A stretch of DNA of 64,000 nt from Xanthostigma xanthostigma (lineage: Eukaryota > Arthropoda > Insecta > Raphidioptera > Raphidiidae), in contig OY754467.1 of the NCBI GenBank assembly GCA_963575645.1, forward strand, positions 34,035,108-34,099,107, written 5' to 3'. The notes beneath the pieces were generated by a model. The model had not been told where the DNA came from, ran no database searches, and saw only the letters and a list, made by a program, of their open reading frames with translations. Below, piece by piece: positions 23,107-64,000 of the stretch (its first letter is position 1; each line of letters starts with the position of its first letter). The position numbers and the translations under genes were made by a program.

Positions 23107-23234
23107 GAAGAGTTTTATTCAGACGTTAATCAAAGATTTGAATTTATTTTGTCAATTAGAAGGAACGGATAATTTGTAAAGATGAGTCATAGTCAGAAAT
23201 AATTCCGAAAAATCGCAACGTATTATTTTTTTAT

Positions 23235-25600
23235 TATTATAGGAAATAAAAGAAAAAATTTCGAACGATCGTTTCGCCTAGGTCAGGTCATCTTCAGATA
23301 CTAGAATGAAGAATTGTCAAGATACATATGAAAGTGAATAAATTACAGATATAGGTAGTTCTTAAACAAGAAATGTGAAGTACTTACATGATGTCAATTA
23401 AGATTAATATGTAACATAAGAACTACATTTTATATTCATCAAAGTTAGAAAACATGATGTGAAATGAAAAAATAAAAATTAATTTCTAACAAAAAATTAC
23501 ATTTTGTGTTTATCAAAGTCAAATATCGACTGATTTGAGATTTTTATTCTGTTTGAACATTTTTGTATCAAGAAAAAAGCCAAGAGGCAATTATGGTGTT
23601 CTTAACCTCTTATGATTGAAAGAATGTCGATTTTCGAATAAAACAAATGTTGTACTATGTCATCTATTGAAATTTTATTGTATTATATGACTTTGTTAAA
23701 TTTTTTTTTTAATATTAACGTATATGTGTGACGGGAGTATGAAAAAGATGAATGAGTTACCTGGTAAATGACTTTGATAAACTAAGTTATACCAGAAATG
23801 GCTAAATTACAAGAATAATATACTTTCACAAAAAAATACAATGTCAATTTGATTAGATTCTTAAATTAAAAAAAAAAATGATTATGGAAGATAAGAAAGT
23901 CTTATTCAAGATCGGAATGATTTGGTCGTTGAGTATGTTGTTATCACCAAAATTGTCAATAAATTTGATGATTTCATAATTTTCCAAGTTATCTAACACT
24001 CTCCCTTTACTTTGTACATGTAAATTTTTAAAGAAATTTTTATGATCATAGTTGTGTCCTGATATTATATGATTAGCAAAACTTGAAGACGGGGAAATGG
24101 ATTTTAAATCTCTGATATTAGTTAAAGCAATGGTGCGTATTTCAATCGGTGGAAAGCAACCGGATGACTCTTGGTATTTGAGTTCCTGAAGCAATTTGGA
24201 AACTTTTTTGTTCAGTACCTCATAACCCCAAAATGGAAGGAATCGGAGAAAAGGGGGGGGGGGGGGTCAAAACGTAAAAAAAAATTGTTTAGAAACCAAA
24301 TGGAAAGGCGGTAGCATTAAAGTACGTGTACTCACTATTGTTTAAAAAAATTGTCATCCGAAACGTGCGGACGGTTTGCGCGAACCGATTTTTTGAAAAT
24401 CGGAAAAAAAAAATTGTGTCGCAACCGGTTGCGATTTTGAGGAAAATTCTTGTTTTTGTTCAGAGATGCTGTAAAAAAATTGTCATCCGTTTCTGCTGGA
24501 CGGATTTTGAGGAATTAAAGGTTTGAGTGGCTAAAATTCTCGATTTTTCACTAGCTTTTTTCAAACATCATAAAAAAATTGCTAAAATTGTTAAAAACGG
24601 ATGACGTTTCTTATACATGTTCTCAGAGAGTCCAACTATAATATGTATCAATGTCATCCGTTTTTATAACATTTAACCCCATTTTTCAACCCTTTACTTT
24701 TGTGCGATATTAATCAGAATATTGAGGTTAGACTCGTTTCTGGTGGCATACAGATAACGTACACAACCCCTTTAGGGGTTGAAAAATGAGGTTAAATGTT
24801 ATAAAAACGGATGACATTGATACATATTATAGTTGGACCCTCTGAGAACATGTATAAGAAACGTCATCCGGCTTTAACAATTTTAGCAATTTTTTTATGA
24901 TGTTTGAAAAAAGCTAGTGAAAAATCGAGAATTTTAGCCACTCAAACCTTTAATTCCTCAAAATCCGTCCAGCAGAAACGGATGACAATTTTTTTACAGC
25001 ATCTCTGAACAAAAACAAGAATTTTCCTCAAAATCGCAACCGGTTGCGACACAATTTTTTTTTTCCGATTTTCAAAAAATCGGTTCGCGCAAACCGTCCG
25101 CACGTTTCGGATGACAATTTTTTTAAACAATAGTGAGTACACGTACTTTAATGCTACCGCCTTTCCATTTGGTTTCTAAACAATTTTTTTTTACGTTTTG
25201 ACCCCCCCCCCCCTTTTCTCCGATTCCTTCCATTTTGGGGTTATGAGGTACTGAACAAAAAAGTTTCCAAATTGCTTCAGGAACTCAAATACCAAGAGTC
25301 ATCCGGTTGCTTTCCACCGATTGAAATACGCACCATTGCTTTAACTATATGTTCTTTAATTCTAGTATAAAATTTTCTGCCCGTCTGGCCTATGTATGAT
25401 TTCCCGCAATCACAGGATATTTGGTAAACACCACTTTGATGTAAAGGAGGAGTACTATCTTTGTTTCTTACTAATAAAGATTTCAAATTGTTGTTATTTT
25501 TGAAAGAAATATTAACATTGGGTTTCTTTTTTTGGATTTGGTCTACGAAATTTTTTCTTTTATTTCCTACAATAATGTTTAATCCAAACTACGAGCTCAC
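23235..25600 (-). mobile_element. Penelope-like retroelement remnant with GIY-YIG endonuclease domain, split by a foldback element
   Basis: The minus strand encodes the C-terminal linker and GIY-YIG nuclease of a Penelope-like element. The first part (about 25578-25338) has the blocks GVYQISCDCGKSYIGQTGRK and YTRIKEHI, including the GIY-YIG motif (variant GVYQ..SYIG) and the catalytic Arg in R-x-x-E-H. The second part (24128 down to about 23850) has SSSFANHIISGHNYDH and LENYEI, then LNDQI, ending in a stop. The frame is split exactly by the foldback at 24129-25337. The reverse transcriptase is missing (5' truncation near 25600). The 3' region carries a hammerhead-like motif at 23267-23297. 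Confidence 0.82.
24129..25337. mobile_element. Long foldback element, CATCCG family, copy 1 (1209 bp)
   Basis: Two arms of about 565 bp are almost perfect inverted repeats around a loop of about 75 nt (about 24695-24769). Termini are AATGGTGCGTATTTCAATCG and its complement. The arms carry, in order, ACCGGATGAC (24158), a C/G homopolymer run, TTGTCATCCGAAAC (24350), TTGTCATCCGTTTC (24479), AACGGATGACG (24597) and ATGTCATCCGTTTT (24651). The flanks TAGTTAAAGC (24119-24128) and GCTTTAACTA (25338-25347) form a palindrome. The identical 66-aa frames on the two strands merely reflect the arms. It is inserted in the GIY-YIG frame of the Penelope-like element. Confidence 0.85.
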
Positions 25601-25890: not shown

Positions 25891-26049
25891 ATGAGGCGTA
25901 GGGCGGTGCTCCTAGCACATAACAGCACCCGCAAGCAGCAGCCGGGCCACGATGAGCGGCCAAACCGACTTGCCCGCGCAACGTCCGAGAGACGACGGAA
26001 AAGAGGAGGCGACGCGCACGACGACGACGACGACGGGTATACGCTGTGA
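25891..26049 (+). promoter_or_regulatory. Upstream ORF overlapping the Axin start codon
   Basis: An ATG at 25891 (context GCCATGA) opens a 52-codon frame in another phase that runs past the Axin ATG (25952) to a TGA at 26047-26049. If the transcript begins upstream of 25891, this overlapping uORF would be expected to lower Axin translation. The peptide has no recognised domain and includes a short run of Asp. Confidence 0.45.
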
Positions 26050-29000
26050 CACACGGCCACCAGCGCTCGGCCAGGAGCAGCGGCAGGACATGATGGGGGT
26101 CGAGCGCCGGGAGGCCGCCGTGCCGCAGCATTACATCGGTGCCGATAGCGACGGAGGTTGCTATACAACAATCGTCAGGCCCGAATCTAGTTGTAGTTTA
26201 TTATCCGACCGTCCGACCGAATTGTGCGGCGCGAGCGCCACCCCGGGCTCCGACCAAAGTCCGGTGGAGATGTTTGCGCCTGAACGACCGCGAGCTCTGC
26301 CGACGTCGTCGACACAATTACGCGCACACAACGTCCATTACAGTTACGATGCCGCGACGCGATACGAGAGCGCGTCGATAGATTGCGGCGGCGGAGACAT
26401 TTCGACGCCGCCTTGGAAGAAATGGGCCACGACGCTCCACGATCTGTTGCACGATGCCGAGGGTGTACTGTTGTTTAGAAAGTACTTACAGTCCGAAGGC
26501 AGGCAGCACGCGGACGCGCTCGAATTTTGGTTCGCCGTCGAAGGTTTGCACGGTCAAATTGCGCCCGAGACAGTTGGCCAGCTGGTGAAAGTTATTTATA
26601 GACGTTATTTTATTAAATCTCAGCTTCCGATCGACAAGTACATGAGAGACGAAGTGGCACGCAGATTTAAATCTGCGGCCGCCGATACTCAGCCTAGACT
26701 TTTTGACGAAGCGCAAAATTATATTGAAAATTTAATCGGTCAAACGACATATCCAAATTTTCTGAAGAGTGATATTTATTTACAGTACTTACAGGTAAGT
26801 CAGGATTTTCTAATTCAATATTTAATGTAGCACTTATTGTTTTGGATACACAGCTAAGCATAAAGAAACAATTGCAGAATTATTCGACTTTCAGCACTTT
26901 GATATTTACCAGTAAGCTATATATTATAAACGACAATTGCCTGCTAAGAACATGGCGGTCGCTTGCGCAGCATGCATGCGCGAATTCTACTGTATTCATA
27001 TGCTATACTATGTATCTGATGTGTTAAAATAGATACATTCTTTTTAATTCTTGTGATTTCGTTTTTGTAAATTATTTAATAACAGTTAACCATACTTTGG
27101 TAAAATATTTAATGAAATGTCAACTGTTCAACCGTTTTTTCAACTTTTGTTTATTTAATCGTTTAAAATATTTAACTAAAATGCAATATATTACAGTTAG
27201 TGCAGAATCCTTCGAGATGTGCTGTGGGAGCTGACGGATCGCCAAATTACAGTGGGGGCGACGTCAGCAGCGGATCCAGCGAGTGTCTCAGTGCTAGAGA
27301 TCTTCCTTTATCCAGCGGTAGTAACGGAGGACCTTTACCTACTGTCCACGAAGACGCCGAATTGATTACTGATTATTATCATCATGGTACACAACTCGCA
27401 AATTTGATTTCTTTAAATTATTCTAGTCATACAAAATTCATTGTAGGTGGCAACACTGTACTGATAGTCTATTATTGCCAGAAAATGATATGGCATCTGG
27501 TGACAGAAATTTAAACCATAAGCACATTACAATAAATCATTTCTTCTCTCGAAAGCTAATATGTACATTGATCGTGCAGTTAGGTTATTTTTTCATTGCT
27601 GCCATCTACTTTAATTTGTCGTGTCGTCTGTATATTTGGTTTGTTTTGTTTAGGTATGCTGAGTTCTGGTCAAAAGAGTCCATTATTCGAGCCACCAAGG
27701 TTGACAAAAGATCTTCTCCTTCAGACACAGACGCGTCGGGCATTCGATGTGAGACCACGAACTGAAACATTTGCAGGGTACGGTTATAATGCACGTTTCT
27801 TTTGTTTTGCATGTGGTTTTTTTTTAATATATAAATATACGATATATAAGCATGCACTTCAAAATACAGCTTTCCTGCTTAGAGAAGCATATAATGTGCT
27901 TTTATATTATTCAGTTTCAGTAAACGACGTTGTATTATTTTACAGTTCAATTATATTTTATATTCTTTGATCTTAATGTAAGACTGACCTTTAATAGCCA
28001 GTTTAGCGCGGCGTCACAAAATTGGAAATTCATAGATTTCAAGGCCAATAAAATACTGTCGACCGTTTCTTAGGGTTTTAAAATTACACAATTTGATATA
28101 CATAATTACAATATACTGGAATATTGTCAAAATTTTCATTACGGAAACAAACATCGCATGGATATCACAACAAAGAACCCTCAACGCCAAATATTATATA
28201 TTTCTTTTACAGCGAAATTAAAAACTCGAAAGGTCAGTCCTTCATTGCGTAGATATTAGATAAAATATGTGCAGTTGTTTGTGTATAGCGACATTGATAT
28301 TTTTCAATAGCGAAGACATTATGATTTGATTTCGGTTTGTTTTTGTTTTTTTTTTCCCGTTTTGGTTTTGTGATCCTCGTATGTGCACGTGTGATGTTGC
28401 TTGCGCTTGGTCCTGTAGCGTGCCTCCGCCATGGATGTCGTATCACGCCGCATACTCGGGCTACGTCCCCGTGTCTCGGGTCGACAGCGAATTACAGTCG
28501 GCCAGCAGCCATTCTGATATCAGGACAGACACTGATTCGATATCGCTCGCGGATCTCAGTGTGTAAGTATGATGCATGTCTAATACTTCAACCTAACCTC
28601 ACTTAAGTAGTGTCAAAGAAAGTATTTGTTCATTTAGCAAGGATGTGTCTTTAATAACTTCTATATTGCTAGTGGCCGTAAGTAGGAGTGTGGCCCATGA
28701 GGTGAGACGGAAAATGACTGTTTTCTATCTCTTTCTTTTTACTTGACCCGTTGTGCGCAAGTGTCGCGTCTGTAGGGGGGCAATTAGTAAGCGGAATAGA
28801 GCAAGCCAGCTCCCTTTCACAGCTAAGTTCCATGTGCAAACTGACGCTGCAACTGACGCGCATCCATTCACGGACATGCGCATGAGACTCAGAGTATAAT
28901 AAGTGAGATAGACGTATACATGTCTGTGCCGTAGTGTTTAAGTCTTTCTCCCGATCTTTGTTAGCAATATAGAGGGCGTTAAATGGTCTTTACCGACATT

Positions 29001-32000: not shown

Positions 32001-35000
32001 ACTGAATATCCCAATATTAGCGGCACACGACACAAGCTCGGTTAGATCAGTCGGTAGAGCGCTCGACTCTTAATCTCAGGGTCGTGGGTTCGAGCCCCAC
32101 CTTGGACGAATATGTTTTTAATGTTTTTTTTTTTTTTTTTTCTACATTGCTTTCTTCTAAGGCTATCATTTAAATTTATTTTAGTTTTATTTACGACTAA
32201 TTAAAATTAAATAAATCTAAATAATAGCTCATTTGAAAACTATTACAGTACCTATATATAAAAATAATTTTCCTACAGTGTTTTCAATTAAATATTTATT
32301 ATATTTTATTAATTATACAGTAATTATTGATTTAAAAGAAATAATTATTACTTAAAAAAATTATTTTCATCAAAAATGAAGGTTTGAGTTTAAAATAAGT
32401 AATAAAGCAGGGAACTGCCGAAAACTGCAAAAAAGTTGGACCCAACATTCATCTCGGTAAACTAAGATGAATGTGCTTACTCATGTCCCTCCCTTCCCCA
32501 TTCGTTCTTTTGCACCCGGGTGAAACCGGGTGGGACCGCTAGTTTATTATATTGTTTTTGACGCCACGAGCAATAAATCTTCTATTTTCTCTGTATGAAA
32601 TTATTGTTCTAATTTGTTACAGATCAACACGTATCGCGAGTGTGGAAAGACTTGACACCTTGTCGATCACCGGGCGTCACGACGCCGGCTCAAGTCGCCG
32701 CGGCACTTCCGATATTCAGAGCAGCTCGACGCAAAGAGCGTGCTGACGTGTATTCGACGTTCAGCAGCGACTCCGGCAACGTAATGGACTACGTGGAATT
32801 GAGCAGTTCGATGGTCAAGAGCAAATCGATGGGAGACTACGAGGAGCGATTCAACAGGGCAGGACCCAACAGAAAATCGGCCAGTAAGAAAACGCTTAAC
32901 GAGTTGACCGACAGCGGTGTGAGCGTCGTGTCGGACACGCCGCCGATCGGTGCTATGCCGAAAGATGGAAAGGTCATGTCGTGGCTGTTTACTCAGAGAG
33001 GTGTCGAGTCGCCGTCGTCACCTACTGCATCACGGTACGTTTTTTTACCACTCGCCCACTTTAAAACCTGAACCACAGTATGTCGAATATGGTAGAATCA
33101 GTTCTCTCTCAGTATTTAAATTGCGCAGACAAGCTGCGCAGCTCGTATTAGCTTACAAAGCGTTCAGGCACGCCAATACTGTCTTCTTATTGATGCAATC
33201 TACATATTGGTCAGTGTGGCTATGGGACTAAGACCGTACAGTATTTAAAGATAAGCTTATCTATCACTGAATCATGGCCCCCACATTCGATTGTGGGCCC
33301 TGTAACCAGGATCTGGGTCGGCCCCCCCCCCAACATATGCCTATTTTTCTTTGTCTTCGGACAAGAATCTTCGCAGAGTTAGAGTGGGGGAGAGTAGAAG
33401 GAGTAGGCGGGGCCCGTGCGTGCTGTTGTATACAAAGTAATATCTATTTTACTCTAAACTGTTTTTATATTTAAATATTTTCATTTATTTTGATAATAAA
33501 GCTATGATTCACTGCAAATACTTCTTGAATAAAAAAATCAGGGCCCCCTCTGAGCCCGGGCCCTGTTACCAGAGTTGCACCAGCCCCACCATTGTGGGGG
33601 CCATGCACTGAATGCAACGCAATGGAAGTGTTCAAAAAACGCTGAATGCATTCGAAGGGACTGATGACTATAGACTGTGTGCACAAAGCCTATTAGCGCC
33701 GCTAGTGGGCAATAGAGAATTATTTAGCTCATTTTTTATGGAAATTGCGACATGTTTCTATGGTGATAAGTTAAAAACTTTAGTTAGCCATGATGTGTCC
33801 AAAAAAAATGTAATAAGGAAAACTGCTGTTAATTTTATATACAATAAAATTAAGATTGTAAACCATTATCAGCGCAACAACACAACAAGCATTTCCAGAT
33901 CACCTAGTTTTGTCCATGTTTTCTTTGTAATTAAAAAACTTTAAAAAAATTATAACTATTTTCACATTTAATAAACATTGTTCACTGACATATGGAAAAT
34001 TTGAGGTTAAAGTTTTCCCTAGTGCTCACCACAAACACTCGCATCAATAAACTTGTAACTTTGCCTCCTTGCACATAGCCCATAGCCCAGTGTTTTTCAA
34101 CCTTTTTCATGATGCGACCCCCCTGGTATGAAAAAATATTTCGCGACCCCCCAACCCTCCGCTTTTTTATCATGTATGTATGTGTATGTTACAGTGTTAC
34201 AAATATTCATTCATACGACGTTTTTATACGTCTCCATAATTAGGATTCGGATATAAGTACATAATATAGTACGTAAAACACATTATTTTACAATTACATA
34301 CCTACATCGAATGCGTCGCCAATTGATAACTAACTAACGCAATTTACGCACATAGGTATTAATAAAATTCTCTCGACCTCTGGCGACCCCTCTACAGAAG
34401 CTTCGCGACCCCCCAGGGGGTCGCGACCCACAGGTTGAAAAACACTGCCATAGCCTATGCCAAACGCGATTGTGATTGATTGTCTCAAGGTCAAAGAAAT
34501 TGTTGACCAAATATCAACTGATTGTACTTTGATGTACTCGTTCTACTATGCCTGAGTGATGCATTTGTCATCAGTTCCTTTGTTTCAGTATTTGTCATCA
34601 GTTACACCGAGTTAGGTAGCGTGCATTTCCAAGTCGAACTTTGATTTGTGTGCTCATGAAACTTGTTATTAGTTTAGTTTTGTAAATTATCTTTAAAATT
34701 TTTGTATTATTATTTTTTTTTATTTCGCAGTAGTCATAAGAAAGCACACGGCCATTCCCGTTCGTCTTCATTGGAACGCGGCAGCACGTCCAGTACGGCG
34801 GCGTCGTTACCTTTAGCCGCCAGTACGCTGCTTATTGCTCCGGTCACCTGTAGACGGGGAGAACCGAGACAGCCTTTCTTAACGATCCCCAACATGCCTC
34901 TGCTGCCAAGTCCACACACTGCCACGCAGCTTGAAGAAGCTCGTCGAAGACTCGAAAGCGATACCAAGCTCATCAAATCGCGGTGAGTATCTATCTCATA

Positions 35001-42832: not shown

Positions 42833-45114
42833 ATGGCCTCTGAAAAAGAATTGACCGAAGGTAAAGTATAAAACATTTTAAAATAGAATAATGTTATTCA
42901 TGATGTACAGAAAAAAAATGAAATTTTAACTAACAAATAGTTACATATTTTTGTAATGTTTTTAGCTGTGAAAGAAGCACTCCAAAAAGACGGTCATCTA
43001 GGTAAATTTCAAGCTGAATTGCGAGCTGCAGTTATAAAGGTTTTGGAACGGAAGCCTCCCGATCATCTGAGGCCAAAATTAACCGATGAAAACTTGTTTG
43101 TCAATGAAATTATACGGGAATATCTGGACTTCAATGGCTTTCGTTATACTGCACAAATGCTAGCTGCAGGTAATTTTTTTACAAAAAAATGTGTTGATTT
43201 GCAAGTTTAAGTGCTACGTGTACGTGTTTTTATTTTTTTGGTGTGTATTAAACTTTTATTGATATTGTGAAAGCTTTATCGAGATAAAAATAAGGAAACG
43301 TTGCAAATTTTCAGCACAAGGACGCGTCGTTATCCGAGTCGGACTTAGAATTCGTAACGGTTGTGATAAAATTACCCTTTCGGCCATTTTTTTCTCAATT
43401 AAAATTACTAGTGGACTTTGTGCAAGAATGATTTTGCTGTAAAATCATATATCTGTTAATTAACTATATGAATCATTACCTATCTACTCAATGTGCGGTG
43501 AGTGAACGCAACAAAGCGTATCGAAAATATATCTGCGTCTCTTTCTTCGATGTAATTCCCTGATTTTTTCGATGATAGGATTGGTTGATGTACTTGCATT
43601 CAATCTGAATAAAGCATATACCTACTTTTATTCTATACTGAGCATAGGAATAAAATCGCAATCGAACTATTAGGGTGTAAACATATACTTCTGTCTTTTT
43701 TTACGCCATAAGCACTGGCGTATCCAGGAGGGCAAAACAAGCACGGGGATCTGGCTTAAGAAATTTCTAATTTGCCCCCTCCTGGGCCAAAACCTGGGTA
43801 CGCCCATGTTAACGTCATAGAAAAAGACAAAGTTTTTGAAACAGAGATACTTTATTCAGATTGAATGCAAGCAAGTACATCAACCAATCCTATCATTGGC
43901 GACATCAGGGAATTGCATCGAAGAAAGAGACGCAGATGTATTTTCGATACGCTTTGTTGGCTTCACTCACCGCACATTGAGTAGATAGGCAATGATTCAT
44001 ATAGTTAATTAATAGATATATGGAATAAAGTATATCTGTTTCAAAAACTTTGTCTTTATCTATGACGTTAACATGGGCGTACGCCGCGTACCCAGCTTTT
44101 GGCCCAGAAGGGCAAATTAGAAATTTCTTAAGCTGGGTCCCCCGCGTGCTTATTTTTCTCTTCTGGGTACGCCAGTGCTTACGGCGTAAAAAAAGACAGA
44201 AGTATATTATGTTTGCAGTTGCACCCTAATAGTTCGATTGCGATTTTATTCCTATGCTCAGTATAGAATAAAAGTATATAATATGTCTAAAATAGGTAAT
44301 AGAAAAATGCATATAGTATGCTAATTTGACATCAACCGTCTACAGCTAAAGATATTTCATTTGGTCTATTCTATTTTATTTTTTACAAAAATATTTCATT
44401 GAGCCAAGCTTCTCAAATGCCTTTTTAAGTGTTGATTAAGGTCCTCCGCGCACATGGGTCGGCTGTTTTACAATTTTAGTTTCTAGCCGAAACAGAATAC
44501 AATCGCTCTATGATCATTCGTACGTTAGAGAATGGGGAGCCCACACATGGATCGACAGAAGAAAAGGCCCCCATACACCTCGTTCTTTTTTGGCAGTTTT
44601 AACCGCACGGGTAAAACGGTCAGTGTGTGGCCAAAAACCGTCCTTCTTACCGGCGTTCAAAAATATTTGCTGTTGCTTGATTTAAACCGTCCGTTTTCAA
44701 ACGTGTTCGAAAAGGACGGGTTTTGTTCGTTGTAGGATCCATCAAAGCAGATCAGATGATGCCACGACTTCTGAAAAACTGAACGAAACAACGCCTAGTG
44801 TGTGGATGTGGTCGTTGTTTACCGTACAGTTTTACCCGTGCGGTTAAAACTGCCAAAAAAGAACGAGGTGTATGGGGCCTTAATAATGCCAGTTGCATGA
44901 TTGAATGTTGCGAAATTTTCATAAGATATAGTTAGTAGATTGCTTTATAAAAATCGCATTGTCTTTTTCAGAAACAGGATCAATTCAAAGAATGAGTCGT
45001 AGGCAAATGGCATACGAATTGGGGGTTTGCGACGATTCTAGAACAATCCAAGTACCGTTGTTGTACAGTTTAATAACGACGTTTCAGAAAAATTTTGCCA
45101 CTCGTAATCAATAA
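42833..45114 (+). CDS. Cep20: CEP20/FOPNL (FOR20) homologue, three exons, 124 aa
   Basis: CEP20 is a small LisH-containing protein of centriolar satellites and basal bodies, needed for ciliogenesis in other animals. Exons 42833-42860, 42966-43169 and 44972-45114, all GT-AG, join in phase 1 each time. After MASEKELTE come a FOP-type N-terminal helix (VKEALQKDGHLGKFQAELRA), ENLFVNEIIREYLDFNGFRY with TAQMLAAE (the LisH motif, residues ~55-80), and a conserved C-terminal block with VPLLYSLITTF. It is shorter than the vertebrate protein (about 174 aa), mainly at the C-terminus. The last exon stops at 45112-45114, and an AATAAA overlaps the stop. Intron 2 holds two complex inverted-repeat elements. 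Confidence 0.9.
43440..44285. repeat. Compound inverted repeat of the order a-b-a'-b'
   Basis: Block a (about 43440-43615, with CGCAACAAAGCGTATCGAAA) is repeated inverted as a' (about 43853-44023). Block b (about 43614-43858, with ATAGGAATAAAATCGCAATC) is repeated inverted as b' (about 44023-44285). The blocks interleave and are not nested. b itself carries GGCGTA(T/C)CCAG and CTGGGTACGCC ends. Confidence 0.75.
44564..44881. mobile_element. MITE with long TIRs in CEP20 intron 2
   Basis: AAGGCCCCCATACACCTCGT through CAGTTTTAACCGCACGGGTA at the left is repeated inverted at the right, over more than 50 bp. 318 bp in total. The open frame at 44532-44735 is incidental. Confidence 0.68.
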
Positions 45115-47880: not shown

Positions 47881-48492
47881 CTAGCGGCCCTGTACGTGCT
47901 TCGCTACGTATAAAGTGAAATAATAAAACAATTTAATTGGAACATCTATCTATCTATCTATCTATTAATTAATTAATTGCTAGCTATTTTAAAATATACA
48001 TGGGCGTATATGTGTGTATGTCGAGCACTCCGGCTGCGCCGTCGTGCTCGAAAAAAAATAGCGTAAAGTATTCGTGGATAACTGGTCTTTAAAACACTTG
48101 CTCTATTTCGAGCACTCCGGCTGCGCCGTCGTGCCGAGCACTCCGGCATATGGTTGTTAAGTTCGTTGCGCCATCTATTGAATATTCACTCAATCCAGTC
48201 AACAGGTATCGCCATCTTATATGGTTGTTAAGTTCGTTGCGCCATCTATTGAATATTCACTCAATCCAGTCAACAGGTATGGCCATCTTATATGGTTGTA
48301 TTATGACTGTCAAGGAATAGACAAATAATTTGCAATAAAATAATATTGCGACTATAAATTGAAATGTAAGCTATCCTATCTTTCAAGTTGGGTCGAATTG
48401 CACACGGTGTGCAAATCAAATTTAAAATCGGTTCAGTAGTTTAGGAGTTCATCGCGGACAAACATATGACACGTAATTTTTATATATAAAGA
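47881..48492 (-). mobile_element. Non-autonomous Helitron, copy G, with tandem repeats
   Basis: On the minus strand it starts TCTTTATATATAAAAATTAC after an A and ends GGGCCGCTAG before a T. Inside are an (ATCT)n-(AATT)n microsatellite near 47946, GAGCACTCCGGCTGCGCCGT repeats (48023, 48116), and a 71-bp tandem duplication. Confidence 0.68.
48148..48300. repeat. 71-bp tandem duplication inside a Helitron
   Basis: Units starting ATATGGTTGTTAAGTTCGTT at 48148 and 48219 differ by one or two bases, with a third partial start near 48290. Confidence 0.75.
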
Positions 48493-49133
48493 TATCAAAT
48501 TTAAAAAAATATCTATGTATATCTAGTATTGACACAAAGTAAAACTCTCTAAAACACTCTGTATATGGTATAGACGACTGTACGGGAATGATATAACATT
48601 GTAATAATAACCTACACTGACCTACAGTATATTAGTCGAGTTTTACAAATTAGAAATACCTCTTAAATACTTCTGGGATCCTATTCATTTTTTGTTAAAT
48701 TGTCCAAATGCCGCTTAAAAAAAAAAAACAACAACAACTCCGAATACCTTTTATAAAGTTATGGGGGATGAATAATAAGTTCTCAATCTTTTGTCAAATC
48801 AACAAACACGTTTTTTAAACCTTTTTGTGTTCCTGAATCTGGTACACCCTACAGGACCTCTGCTAGTAGCCTATGCGCATAATGCACGCAGAACTTCTAG
48901 TTTTCTTCTGGAATGTCTGGAATACTTTTCAGATACTTACTTTTGGATCTTATAAAAATGATACTCTGAATTCAATACATTCATCCGTTCTGTAACTGTT
49001 ACCGTTTCGAAGATAGAGCTTCTCCAGATTTTTTTCTGAATATTCTGGAATATTGAACGGATCCTTTTGAAATTCGGTATACTTACGGAAAACAATACGC
49101 TGAATTCAACTGGACCATCCAAATATTCAAAGC

Positions 49134-50321
49134 AATGGCACGTCAATCCGGTGTCGGAGAGGCAACCGGATGGCGAGTGGTAATCTGGGCTTATGAGTGG
49201 TGCAGAACCCCCTGGTAGCGGCCAAAGTGACCCCAAATGGACGGGGGCGGCGATATGGGGGTGGGTCAAAATCGAAAAATTTCTGAAAAGGCAACCGGAT
49301 AAAAATGCGGTTGCATTGAAGGAAATACCCTAATTATATAATAAATTTTTTTTGCCATCCGAAACACGCGGGCCGTTTTTGCACTAGCGAATAAAAAAAA
49401 AATAAAAAAAAAACTGAAAAGGCAACCGCTTCAAAATTAGTGAGCATACTTATTGACACCACCAAACGTTGGAAAAAAATTGCCATCCGATCCTGATGGG
49501 CAGTTTCGGAGAAACAACCCCTCAAAGTCGCCGAAAAACCCTTTTTTTCGATTTTTTCAACAATTAGTAAAAAAAACACATTAAAAATTGTTCAAATCGG
49601 ATGGCATTCGAAATTTATACTGTCCTAAGTACAAATAATAGTGTGTATCATTGCCATCCGATTTCGATTAAATTTACCCCTATTTAGCCACCTCCAAAAC
49701 TCATGAAAATAACAATTTTACGCAGCGTATGGCATTATTTTCATTGTTATTGAGTCTTGGGGGTTGGCTAAATAGGGGTAAATTTAATCGAAATCGGATG
49801 GCATTGATACACACTATTATTTGTACTTAGGACAGTATAAATTTCGAATGCCATCCGATTTGAACAATTTTTAATGTGTTTTTTTTACTAATTGTTGAAA
49901 AAATCGAAAAAAAGGGTTTTTCGGCGACTTTGAGGGGTTGTTTCTCCGAAACTGCCCATCAGGATCGGATGGCAATTTTTTTCCAACGTTTGGTGGTGTC
50001 AATAAGTATGCTCACTAATTTTGAAGCGGTTGCCTTTTCAGTTTTTTTTTTATTTTTTTTTTATTCGCTAGTGCAAAAACGGCCCGCGTGGTTCGGATGG
50101 CAAAAAAAATTTATTATATAATTAGGGTATTTCCTTTAATGCAACCGCATTTTTATCCGGTTGCCTTTTCAAACATTTTTCGATTTTTCCCCACCCCCAT
50201 ATCGCCGCCCCCGTCCATTTGGGGTCACTTTGGCCGCTACCAGGGGGTTCTGCACCACTCATAGGCCCAGATTACCACTCGCCATCCGGTTGCCTCTCCG
50301 ACACCGGATTGACGTGCCATT
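49134..50321. mobile_element. Long foldback element, CATCCG family, copy 2 (1188 bp)
   Basis: Near-perfect inverted arms of about 550 bp around a loop of about 75 nt (about 49690-49770). Termini AATGGCACG and CGTGCCATT match copy 1 (AATGGTGCG) at seven of nine positions, followed soon by GCAACCGGATG as in copy 1. Ordered inner motifs: GCAACCGGATGGC (49152), TTGCCATCCGAAAC (49353), TTGCCATCCGATCC (49479), ATCGGATGGCATTCG (49597), TTGCCATCCGATTT (49651). Flanks TATTCAAAGC (49124-49133) and GCTTTGAATA (50322-50331) are complementary. The identical 81-codon frames in the two arms mirror each other and look incidental. Confidence 0.85.
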
Positions 50322-50617
50322 GCTTTGAATAAAAGGATCGTACCTACCATTTTCCATTTTGGAGATACAGACGTGCAAAAGTTGCTTTGATATAAACTGA
50401 AAATTTAAAAAAAAGTAGTTAATAGCTATGGTAACAAGAAACTTGCATTTAAATTAAATCAAATTAAAAATAAAACGGACTTATTTAAATTTGATGGTTC
50501 CATACTTTTCTTGACTGTTAAAATTACAATGGGCACTATGAGAATTTTCGAACATTGATATCTTATCAAATATATTTTATTAATATTTATTTCCATTTGA
50601 AACAAATAATTTAAAAA

Positions 50618-59638: not shown

Positions 59639-62358
59639 TCATCGTGACATATTTGTAAGAAATTTAGCAACAGCTTGTAAACCGTTCCATATTTCATTTA
59701 CAGTTGGTTGTATTTTATTTGGAGGCAGTTCAAACCCAGTCGGGCCACCTTCGGGTAACTCAATACAATAAACAAACGGAACGCCGAGAACTCCTTTAAA
59801 CCAGTCATCACTTCCTCCTCCAGCTACGTACATATCTTGCCCAGGTGAACCGACATAGTATTTGTAACCAGTTGCCTTATTCATAATATTAGCGACACAT
59901 TTCAACGACTCTATATCTTCCGGTAAATCTTTCGTGTATCCCCAGGAATGATAAATATTCGTACCGAAACTGTGAAAAGTTAGGTAAAGTTGAATCTTCG
60001 GAACGGACAATCCAAGGTCACGCAGTGCGCTCGATTCTGGTTCAGAAAATGGCTCCGGGCCGGCGTACGTCTCATCGCACGGATATGTCGGGTCTCCTGA
60101 TATGGATGGACTATTGAGTTCGGACAGCCATTGAAAATCGAAGTTTCTGTTCAAATCGATTCCGTAACAGCCATCGGAATCGTTGAGCGGAACGCGCGTC
60201 TTACGCCATAGGCGATCCTTCAAATATAAAGCAATTAATTTAACAAATTTTAATAAGCCACTATATGTTAAACGAGAATCACTCAGATTGTTTACTTAGA
60301 GGAGACAGTTACTTTTAAAAATATAGTGTAAAGTTCACTTAACGTCACTCGATATAACGACAAACTCCTTAAAACGTCGAAATTACTTAGCTCTAATTGG
60401 TTTACCTTTTTTCTCATGCAATGATACACTCTAAATAACGACACACCCATTCTAAATAACGACAACAATACGTCATCATTAAGCAATAAACAGCACTTGT
60501 TTGTTATTTTGTTGCTTTGTTGTCGGCATCATGCGTACCGAAGATTCTAATAAATTCGTTCTTTTGTTTGTTGGGATTATCTTTCATATGTTTAGCTCAG
60601 CTGCTTATCGATAAGTTATCATATTTTTAGTTGCCCACAAACTTGCAAACTGTGAACATTGCGAGTAAAAGAAACTCTTTGTGTATTGACGAAAAAGTTT
60701 TATTAATACGCGCAATAGATGCGGGAGAAAAGATAAGTGATGTTGGAAGACGCTTTGGATTCAGTCGCTCGACCAAATCGACAATATGGAAGAACAAAGA
60801 AAAAAATTCTAGAAGCAGAAGAGGATGGATAATTATTATAGTAAAAAAATTCCAGCCAATTGGGCGACGGGACCATTCCAACTTCAAAACTGTTGACATT
60901 TGATTAAAATAAAGAAAATACAATATCTTATATCGCGTGAGGTGACGCGGGTAATGGCTAGTATTCAATATGATATTTGCTAATCGTTGCCATGGTTACC
61001 TATATAATATGTTCCACGTCATGTAAATATTAATCAAAACATGCCGAACTTGTTTATTTCTGATAGATCCATAAAACAAAAGAGGGGCTTATTTTTTTTT
61101 ATTTTCAAAATATTTCCGAAACTATAAAGTTTAGAAAAAAAATTTTTTAACGAAACTTTCTTGAAAAAATAAATAAAAGTATACCATTATTATATAAAAA
61201 ACACCGTTATAGCAAATATCTCTTCTGCGCATACGCCGATTTTCCCCAAAAACAATAGGGCTCTTCATATTTGCATACCAAACATCCTCCCAAAATTTGG
61301 TTTCGAACCGCTCATCCGTTTGACCTGTATCGTGTTCACAGAGAAACAGACGCACAGAGATTTTCCAAAAATATGTTTTTTGGATTCAGGGGACCTCAAA
61401 ACGGAAAGATATTGTAAAAATTTTGAAAAGTGATTTTTGACCTAAACTAGTACCATTCCACTTGTGGGTTGGAATGGTAAAATATTAATGGATTATTTCT
61501 TCTCTCCGGTTAACGACAACTCTCAATAGCGCCACAAAGTGCACAGTCCCTTCACAAAATAATTATCTCAACCGCCGGTAAGTAAATACAACATTATTTT
61601 TATCTTAAGTGGAGAATTAATTTGACAAAGTTTTTGTCAGTTAAATTTGATTGATAAGCCTCATTAATTGTTGCTTTTATATCCTACAAAACTGCATTTC
61701 TTAGAAAAAGACGAGTGCTTTTCTCTCATACTGGATGTTATTATCATTATTCATTACGTTGTATTAAATGATATAGGGAATGCTAGGTCCATTTATATAT
61801 TTTACGTCTTTGGTGTGAACTAATATGGGAAATGCTAGGTCCCTCTCCGATCACTACTTACGTGCGTGTGACTGTATTCATAACCATCGGGATTCAGTAC
61901 TGGAATAATATACCAATCAAATTTAGTAACACAAAGATCGGTAAACGCAGTTGCGTTATCCAAAAGTTGGTGCGTTATATAGAGGGCAGTAGCTGGGGCA
62001 ATCCATTCCCGTGCATGTATGCCAGCATCAATTACAATAGCCGGCCGTTCTTCTTCGTTATGCGTTGCTTTGAACGTTATCTTTATCATTTTTATTAACC
62101 TGCCTTCAAATGTTCTGCCAATTGAGGATACTTTTGCACTCTCTGGATACTCTTGTTGCAACTGATCTAAATAATTCACTATCTACAAATTAAAAAATAA
62201 ATCATAGACGGGCAATGAAGTTATGGCTGCTGGATTCATTCTTTTTCAAAATATATTTTCATTGATTTCATTGTTTTATTACCTCGTGGTATCTGTGATA
62301 TTTCTGAAATGAAATTTTATTTCTTTGTTGTGATAAATCTTCAAAGATTTTGTGGGAT
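59639..62358 (-). CDS. Zinc carboxypeptidase (M14A, B-type), three 3' exons, partial
   Basis: Minus-strand exons are 62358-62283, 62182-61862 and 60217-59639 (TGA), with GT-AG introns. The first exon gives KYHRYHE before IVNYLDQLQQEYPESAKVSS. All M14 landmarks follow: zinc ligands His and Glu in DAGIHAREW, the FDWYIIPVLNPDGYEY core, DRLWRKTR with the substrate-binding Arg, NRNFDF, a third zinc-ligand His in LTFHSF, MYVAGGGSDDW (Tyr-248 equivalent), and IEL with the catalytic Glu. The residue equal to CPA-255 is Asp (GGS-D-D-W), as in carboxypeptidase B, which favours C-terminal Lys/Arg. The signal peptide, propeptide and N-terminus are not found and probably lie beyond 64000. A digestive or secreted role is likely from the family. 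Confidence 0.92.
60324..61552 (+). mobile_element. Decayed Tigger-like element with transposase N-terminal remnant
   Basis: The left end AGTGTAAAGTTCACTTAACG and the right-end block with AACGACAACTCTCAATAGCG resemble the TIR regions of 52927-53288. At about 60661-60835 the plus strand encodes SKRNSLCIDEKVLLIRAIDA then GEKISDVGRRFGFSRSTKST and IWKNKEK, the CENP-B/psq-type helix-turn-helix of pogo/Tigger transposases. The rest is replaced by the repeat at 60868-61480. It lies in a carboxypeptidase intron. Confidence 0.78.
60868..61480. repeat. Interspersed repeat, GACCATTCC family, copy 2
   Basis: Starts GGGACCATTCCAACTTC and ends with the hairpin TACCATTCCACTTGTGGGTT then GGAATGGTAA, as in 5743-6440. 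Inserted into the Tigger remnant. Confidence 0.65.
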
Positions 62359-63268: not shown

Positions 63269-64000
63269 ACTCAATATCTGTTGCCGTTATTGTTTAAACA
63301 ACGAAAAATTGAAAATATTGCAAAATAATTTTTTTTGCAATAAATAATTTTTTTATATATTTTTCAGACTATTTTGAATCGAAAAAGTCCTTACACTCAT
63401 TATCGTATCTTCAACCGGTGAATTTTTATGAATTTTTAAAAATTAAAAATCGTTGTGATTTTCTTGAATTAAATAGTACACCTGAAAAAAAATACCGTGA
63501 TTTCTATTTTTTTATTAAATATTTAAACTTTAATAAAAAAAATGGCGTAATCAGATTTCAAATATTTTATTAATTATTATGTTTATTATTCATAATAACA
63601 ATATGCAATAATTTGTCGAAGCGTACCATCTGCCTCTCTCTTACTAATGTCATACATAGGACTGGGAGTGAGATGACAATACTACTATCCTTAAAGTGCA
63701 TGCGCGTAAAGACCATATTGTTATTATGAATAATAAACATACTAATTAATAAAATATTTGAAATCTGATTACGCCATTTTTTTTTATTAAAGTTTAAATA
63801 TCACGATTTACAACGATTTTTAATTTTTAAAAATTCATAAAAATTCACCGGTTGAAGATACGATAATGAGTGTAAGGACTTTTTCGATTCAAAATAGTCT
63901 GAAAAATATATAAAAAAATTATTTATTGCAAAAAAAATTATTTTGCAATATTTTCAATTTTTCGTTGTTTAATAAACAATAACGGCAACAGATATTGAGT
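63269..64000. mobile_element. Third long foldback, running off the window edge
   Basis: The left arm 63269 to about 63605 (ACTCAATATCTGTTGCCGTT...) is repeated inverted from about 63713 to 64000, around a loop of about 107 nt. It lacks the CATCCG motifs and the AAAGC termini of the other two. Its outer boundary may lie beyond the window. Confidence 0.75.

Follow-up and report, generated by a model that had tools for sequence, protein, structure and literature searches.

In C. elegans, the Tc1/mariner transposon Tc4 has long arms and a short loop, and also occurs in a short form without a gene. The passages of the cited papers used here place Tc4 at CTNAG targets, with TNA duplicated, and report relatives in arthropods (PMC11071193). 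Those on TgmR* of soybean (CACTA/EnSpm) describe a 3-bp duplication and a subterminal motif whose repeats are both direct and inverted, with soybean CACTA subfamilies distinguished by motif (PMC4219821). Galileo is described as having long inverted repeats, transposase-less copies and diverged subfamilies in one genome (PMC4168063), and Tetris as having long inverted repeats with internal tandem repeats, again with copies that lack a transposase (PMC4079207); duplications of 7-10 bp are given for both. Muta1 of Aedes, a Mutator-like element termed a foldback type, makes an 8-9 bp duplication, and its inverted repeats hold 12-bp motifs in tandem, separated by 3-4 bp linkers (PMC5225508). TA..TA ends with 6-bp duplications are ascribed to IS3EU/GingerRoot, 3-bp duplications to Zator and 3-4 bp duplications to AcademX (PMC10045372). 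The insect MITE survey iMITEdb, as its description states, discarded consensus sequences above 800 bp (PMC5199201), and a survey of that type would therefore miss elements of the lengths given below.

Here, we describe two palindromic elements lying 25 kb apart in a 64-kb window (the whole stretch of DNA that was analysed). We think it probable that they are non-autonomous foldback cut-and-paste DNA transposons with TA..TA ends, whose ordered sites would be bound by a putative transposase encoded elsewhere (Table 1). The window has a G+C content of 34.3% and is animal DNA, as its Axin and carboxypeptidase exons indicate: Pfam finds an RGS domain and an Axin beta-catenin-binding motif in frames 25916-26830 and 32613-33071, and zinc carboxypeptidase in two frames at 59639-62182. 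Nine translated stretches of the window were scanned against Pfam, and five gave no match. The animal is possibly an arthropod. Other repeats were also seen in the window. A large inverted repeat at 63287-63979 (170-bp arms 98% identical, inner 84-bp pair 92%) contains no GYCATCCG, the site discussed below; nested inverted repeats at 43446-44207 (160-bp arms 91%, 60-bp arms 97%) are possibly another foldback; and at 48148-48289 two 71-bp units, 99% identical, lie head to tail.

Table 1. Window coordinates of the two elements, their sites and flanking repeats, and the interrupted reading frame. For site starts, the sign after each number gives the strand of that site.
Feature	Position	Strand	Basis or remark
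GIY-YIG endonuclease frame, downstream half, 3-bp repeat included	23889..24118	-	
3-bp direct repeat TAT, target-site duplication, left of copy 1	24116..24118	.	
Foldback element copy 1, TAGTTAAAGCAATGG...CCATTGCTTTAACTA	24119..25347	.	palindrome limits; homology to copy 2
Copy 1 left arm (574 bp), five GTCATCCG sites	24119..24692	+	arm alignment, site scan
Composite site GCAACCGGATGAC (GCAACCG fused to outermost GYCATCCG), copy 1	24156..24168	+	
Copy 1 left-arm 8-bp site starts	24161-, 24353+, 24482+, 24598-, 24653+		site scan
Copy 1 unpaired loop, 83 bp	24693..24775	.	inverted-repeat scan
Copy 1 right arm (572 bp), five GTCATCCG sites	24776..25347	-	arm alignment, site scan
Copy 1 right-arm site starts	24808-, 24863+, 24979-, 25108-, 25298+		site scan
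3-bp direct repeat TAT, target-site duplication, right of copy 1	25348..25350	.	identical to 24116-24118
GIY-YIG endonuclease frame, upstream half	25351..25579	-	
3-bp direct repeat AAA, target-site duplication, left of copy 2	49121..49123	.	
Foldback element copy 2, TATTCAAAGCAATGG...CCATTGCTTTGAATA	49124..50331	.	palindrome limits
Copy 2 left arm (575 bp), five GCCATCCG sites	49124..49698	+	arm alignment, site scan
Composite site GCAACCGGATGGC, same place in copy 2	49162..49174	+	
Copy 2 left-arm site starts	49167-, 49354+, 49482+, 49598-, 49653+		site scan
Copy 2 unpaired loop, 58 bp	49699..49756	.	inverted-repeat scan
Copy 2 right arm (575 bp), five GCCATCCG sites	49757..50331	-	arm alignment, site scan
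Copy 2 right-arm site starts	49795-, 49850+, 49966-, 50094-, 50281+		site scan
3-bp direct repeat AAA, target-site duplication, right of copy 2	50332..50334	.	

Long inverted arms form the bulk of both elements, as in a foldback. Arm against arm, copy 1 shows four mismatches in 572 positions and one 2-bp gap, and copy 2 shows 11 in 575 with no gap; the resulting within-copy identity of 98-99% bears out the initial annotation, which had described two near-perfect foldbacks. That annotation located both elements but set their edges 10 bp too far in on each side, so that its lengths of 1209 and 1188 bp are replaced by 1229 and 1208 bp at the exact palindrome limits. It also took the loop size to be kept, whereas the loops measure 83 and 58 bp. 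Both copies have TA..TA ends, the termini being TAGTT in copy 1 and TATTC in copy 2, and the bases just inside the terminal TA differ between them (GTT versus TTC), which is odd for terminal repeats. Read on the other strand, the terminal box (24119-24137 and 49124-49142) gives (A/G)CCATTGC and looks like a degenerate sixth GYCATCCG site. We saw no gene inside either element, in agreement with the earlier statement that no transposase is encoded: the longest reading frame wholly inside an element is 85 aa, and 22 stop-to-stop frames of at least 50 aa overlap the elements, of which the 10 scanned had no Pfam match above the curated cut-off.

Sequence comparison supports the two copies being homologous members of one family. 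Of 565 aligned left-arm positions, 325 are identical (57.5%); between random segments of the window, identity averaged 44% over 30 pairs and never exceeded 49%. The copies are strongly diverged, as had been noted. Another aligner setting with slightly different limits gave 239 mismatches of 566 for copy against copy. When the sites described below were overwritten with random letters, four of the five still found their exact alignment in 12-20 of 20 trials, whichever of three settings was used, and homology therefore extends into the spacers; site 2 realigned exactly in just 3-4 of 20.

Left arms and right arms do not form distinct lines of descent, since all cross-comparisons are equivalent (left 1 with left 2, 325/565; left 1 with right 2, 325/566; right 1 with right 2, 326/566). 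In a four-way alignment, from which 17 gapped columns were left out, 231 between-copy differences are identical on both arms, against 14 columns in which a copy's own arms disagree, which indicates that within each lineage the two arms evolved in step. Because arm differences within a copy are so few compared with those between copies, both insertions look much younger than the lineage split.

The sites form an array that this divergence has largely spared. The window contains 20 copies of GYCATCCG, compared with 1.15 expected under a dinucleotide model, and all 20 lie inside the elements, ten in each. Every arm carries five in the order - + + - +, with order and orientation the same in both copies; the initial annotation had recognised this arrangement, although its five sites are those of one arm and not of a whole element. 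Distances from site to site along the left arm are 192/187, 129/128, 116/116 and 55/55 bp (copy 1/copy 2). In copy 1, ten of ten sites read GTCATCCG, and in copy 2, ten of ten read GCCATCCG, the difference being T or C, respectively, at the second base. After low-complexity filtering, the top-ranked 8-mer of the copy 1 left arm alone is CGGATGAC (5 observed, 0.008 expected), and that of the copy 2 left arm alone is CGGATGGC (5 observed, 0.017 expected). As each arm by itself puts its own version on top, detection of the motif does not depend on the comparison between copies.

Between the copies, 35 of 40 site positions are identical as opposed to 290 of 525 other arm positions (Fisher p 4e-5), consistent with the original proposal that the sites are kept while the rest drifts, and just one of 564 circular shifts conserves as well as the true site positions. 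The five differences within sites all consist of this T/C switch, and their joint chance is about 1.4e-4 at the rates of T-to-C and A-to-G change found at non-site positions. Conserved stretches occur outside the sites as well, namely AAAGCAATGG, GGGTCAAAA and A-runs. A second enriched motif, GCAACCG, is found six and eight times in the elements (both strands) and once elsewhere in the window; in both copies it is joined to the outermost GYCATCCG site as GCAACCGGATGRC. Nearly all spacings are kept, and the copies differ by 6 indels per 239 mismatches, compared with 76 per 947 among 25 further repeat pairs from the window; however, unrelated segments aligned likewise also have few gaps (mean 8.5, minimum 5, 30 pairs), which makes the argument from low indel numbers weak.

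Direct repeats of 3 bp flank both copies, TAT at copy 1 and AAA at copy 2; they are short and AT-only, with a joint chance of about 4e-4 from base composition. These repeats, the insertion into an endonuclease frame and the GCAACCG motif are new relative to the initial annotation. The frame that copy 1 splits, on the minus strand, carries GVYQISCDCGKSYIGQTGRKFYTRIKEH. Removal of copy 1 together with one TAT joins YIGQTGRKFYTRIKEH to IRDLKSISPSSSFANH without a stop (KEH-IRDLKSISPSSSFANH), and the 3-bp duplication model predicts the uninterrupted target CTCTGATATGTTC on the plus strand. Excising the copy 1 palindrome alone, with no duplication, also leaves the frame open, one residue longer. The joined peptide scores 26.2 bits against Pfam GIY-YIG (cut-off 22.6) both as a 49-aa peptide with the 3-bp join and as a 50-aa peptide with no duplication; among the 73/74-aa versions, the no-duplication join alone passed the GIY-YIG filters (24.8 bits). 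Against Pfam, a 150-aa joined peptide gave no GIY-YIG match, just a weak KaiA match, and nothing matched the 31- and 35-aa upstream pieces by themselves. Pfam identifies the GIY-YIG domain but does not choose between the 3-bp and no-duplication joins.

Duplications of TA and TTAA were considered first, because both palindromes start with TA and copy 1 has TTAA. A TA duplication, as in Tc1/mariner, is compatible with the sequence at both ends, but joining on that model puts a stop in the copy 1 endonuclease frame, a result that concerns copy 1, as copy 2 interrupts no such frame. TTAA, as in piggyBac/Kolobok, is allowed by the sequence at copy 1 only, where it likewise puts a stop in the frame; copy 2 has TTCAA/TTGAA. 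The rebuilt target of copy 2, ATCC-AAA-GGAT (49110-49123 plus 50332-50345), is palindromic and contains CATCC, and that of copy 1 is not palindromic.

From the GIY-YIG match and its sequence motifs, we take the endonuclease gene to be that of a Penelope-like retroelement, and the interrupted frame is probably its 3' end. A word search of open papers found no co-mention of the YIGQT peptide with Penelope, no relatives of the endonuclease peptide were confirmed in viral contigs, and comparison with the PDB gave nothing convincing (best E 0.026, judged to be chance). A 31-bp piece of the frame recurs inverted at 23233-23263, and the frame (23889-25579) stops about 340 bp short of the Axin RGS exon frame.

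The family is known from these two copies, both within the 64-kb window. A three-site pattern matched 28 stretches of a viral collection and at least 119 prokaryote stretches, matches that we judge to be due to chance. Among the 148 loci listed, two have nine sites within 1.3 kb and none has ten; within that span the two nine-site loci have no 18-mer in common with their own reverse complement, and the most 18-mers that any listed locus has in common with its own is 28. One terminal pattern had no match in the collections searched. The other matched a single stretch, L148 (included in the 148), which has one end and no inverted repeats of at least 20 bp in the 2.6 kb examined. AAAGCAATGG is also present in L104 and L116.

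A gene-less palindrome with short direct repeats at both loci points to a non-autonomous cut-and-paste transposon, and the persistence of ordered sites while the spacer drifts suggests that the sites bind a transposase. Copies 1 and 2 would then represent two old subfamilies of one family, one each, and would have inserted much later than the subfamilies split. A putative transposase from elsewhere in the genome would bind the rows of GYCATCCG, and perhaps GCAACCG, in each arm; once bound, it would join the two ends and cut beside TA, and insertion at a staggered cut would leave the 3-bp duplication. Five ordered and oriented sites per arm would set the geometry of this protein-DNA complex, with the intervening sequence able to drift more freely. 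The arms may be kept nearly identical by gene conversion or hairpin-templated repair, in which a change is either copied to the other arm or lost.

An extension of this scheme, which we consider unlikely, is that a single recognition code exists in two versions, GTCATCCG and GCCATCCG, one for each subfamily, so that two mutually exclusive transposition systems coexist in one genome. The ten sites of an element would have switched together, with order, orientation and nearly all spacings unchanged, because the binding domain of the transposase changed its base preference; arm-to-arm and site-to-site gene conversion is a likely route for such a joint change. If so, the arrays would document how a DNA-binding protein and ten of its sites evolved in concert.

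The same uniform switch bears on the alternative that the elements are mobile but that their sites bind a host factor, acting in transcription, insulation or silencing, or serve the transcription of a hairpin RNA from which small RNAs are made. If transcribed, the near-perfect arms, each about 570 bp long, would indeed give a long hairpin RNA, and CAACCGGTTG in copy 1 resembles a Grainyhead-type site. However, binding of a host factor would not readily explain why ten of ten sites per copy differ at the same base between copies, and ordered sites are dispensable for a hairpin RNA, so we regard this alternative as unlikely. It is more improbable that the elements are ordinary relics in which site conservation reflects sampling of a motif-rich ancestral repeat, the shared letters being chosen post hoc. 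There are just two copies, the motif was first chosen by eye and other shared runs exist outside the sites; against this, the motif tops the 8-mer ranking in the left arm of each copy alone, and neither its 35 of 40 positions kept, compared with 55% elsewhere, nor the one shift in 564 that does as well is readily attributed to sampling.

Local inverted duplication by template switching, with no transposition involved, can create palindromes, and the arms here are nearly identical. We consider it very improbable, since loci 25 kb apart have termini, layout and sites in common, 3-bp direct repeats flank both, and reconstructing the empty site restores an open endonuclease frame.

Should the elements be transposons of the kind we favour, they would provide an animal example with a multi-site oriented array as its ends, and one in which the array switched sequence as a unit. 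Comparable multi-site arrays form the ends of bacterial Mu and Tn7. The pair would also offer a natural experiment on joint change in a DNA-binding protein and its many target sites, and on the means by which the arms of a long palindrome stay identical while lineages diverge widely (231 paired versus 14 unpaired differences).

The systems introduced above match the elements in part, as far as the cited passages describe them, and the family may have a catalogued relative. Tc4 has the same fold-back plan and 3-bp duplication, but the duplications here are TAT and AAA and CTNAG is absent from both 40-bp rebuilt targets, which argues against Tc4-like membership. With CACTA/EnSpm the elements have in common a 3-bp duplication and a motif array in both orientations; they differ from it in that the whole element is one palindrome, and their ends are TAGTT/TATTC, not CACTA. 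Long inverted repeats, no transposase and diverged subfamilies in one genome recall Galileo, whereas the dispersed single sites are unlike the internal tandem repeats of Tetris, and for Mutator/Galileo-type foldbacks in general a duplication of 7-10 bp is expected in place of 3 bp. Muta1 likewise has inverted repeats with repeated short motifs, but its duplication is 8-9 bp as opposed to 3 bp. IS3EU/GingerRoot fits in its TA..TA ends and not in its 6-bp duplication; Zator and AcademX, compared by duplication length, resemble the elements in that feature; and ATon of Aedes, which inserts at AT and is shorter than 500 bp (PMC3422177), is a misfit. As judged from open papers searched by words, the kind of element is already known, namely foldback transposons with motif-rich long inverted repeats, and the two copies described here appear to be an unusual variant of it.
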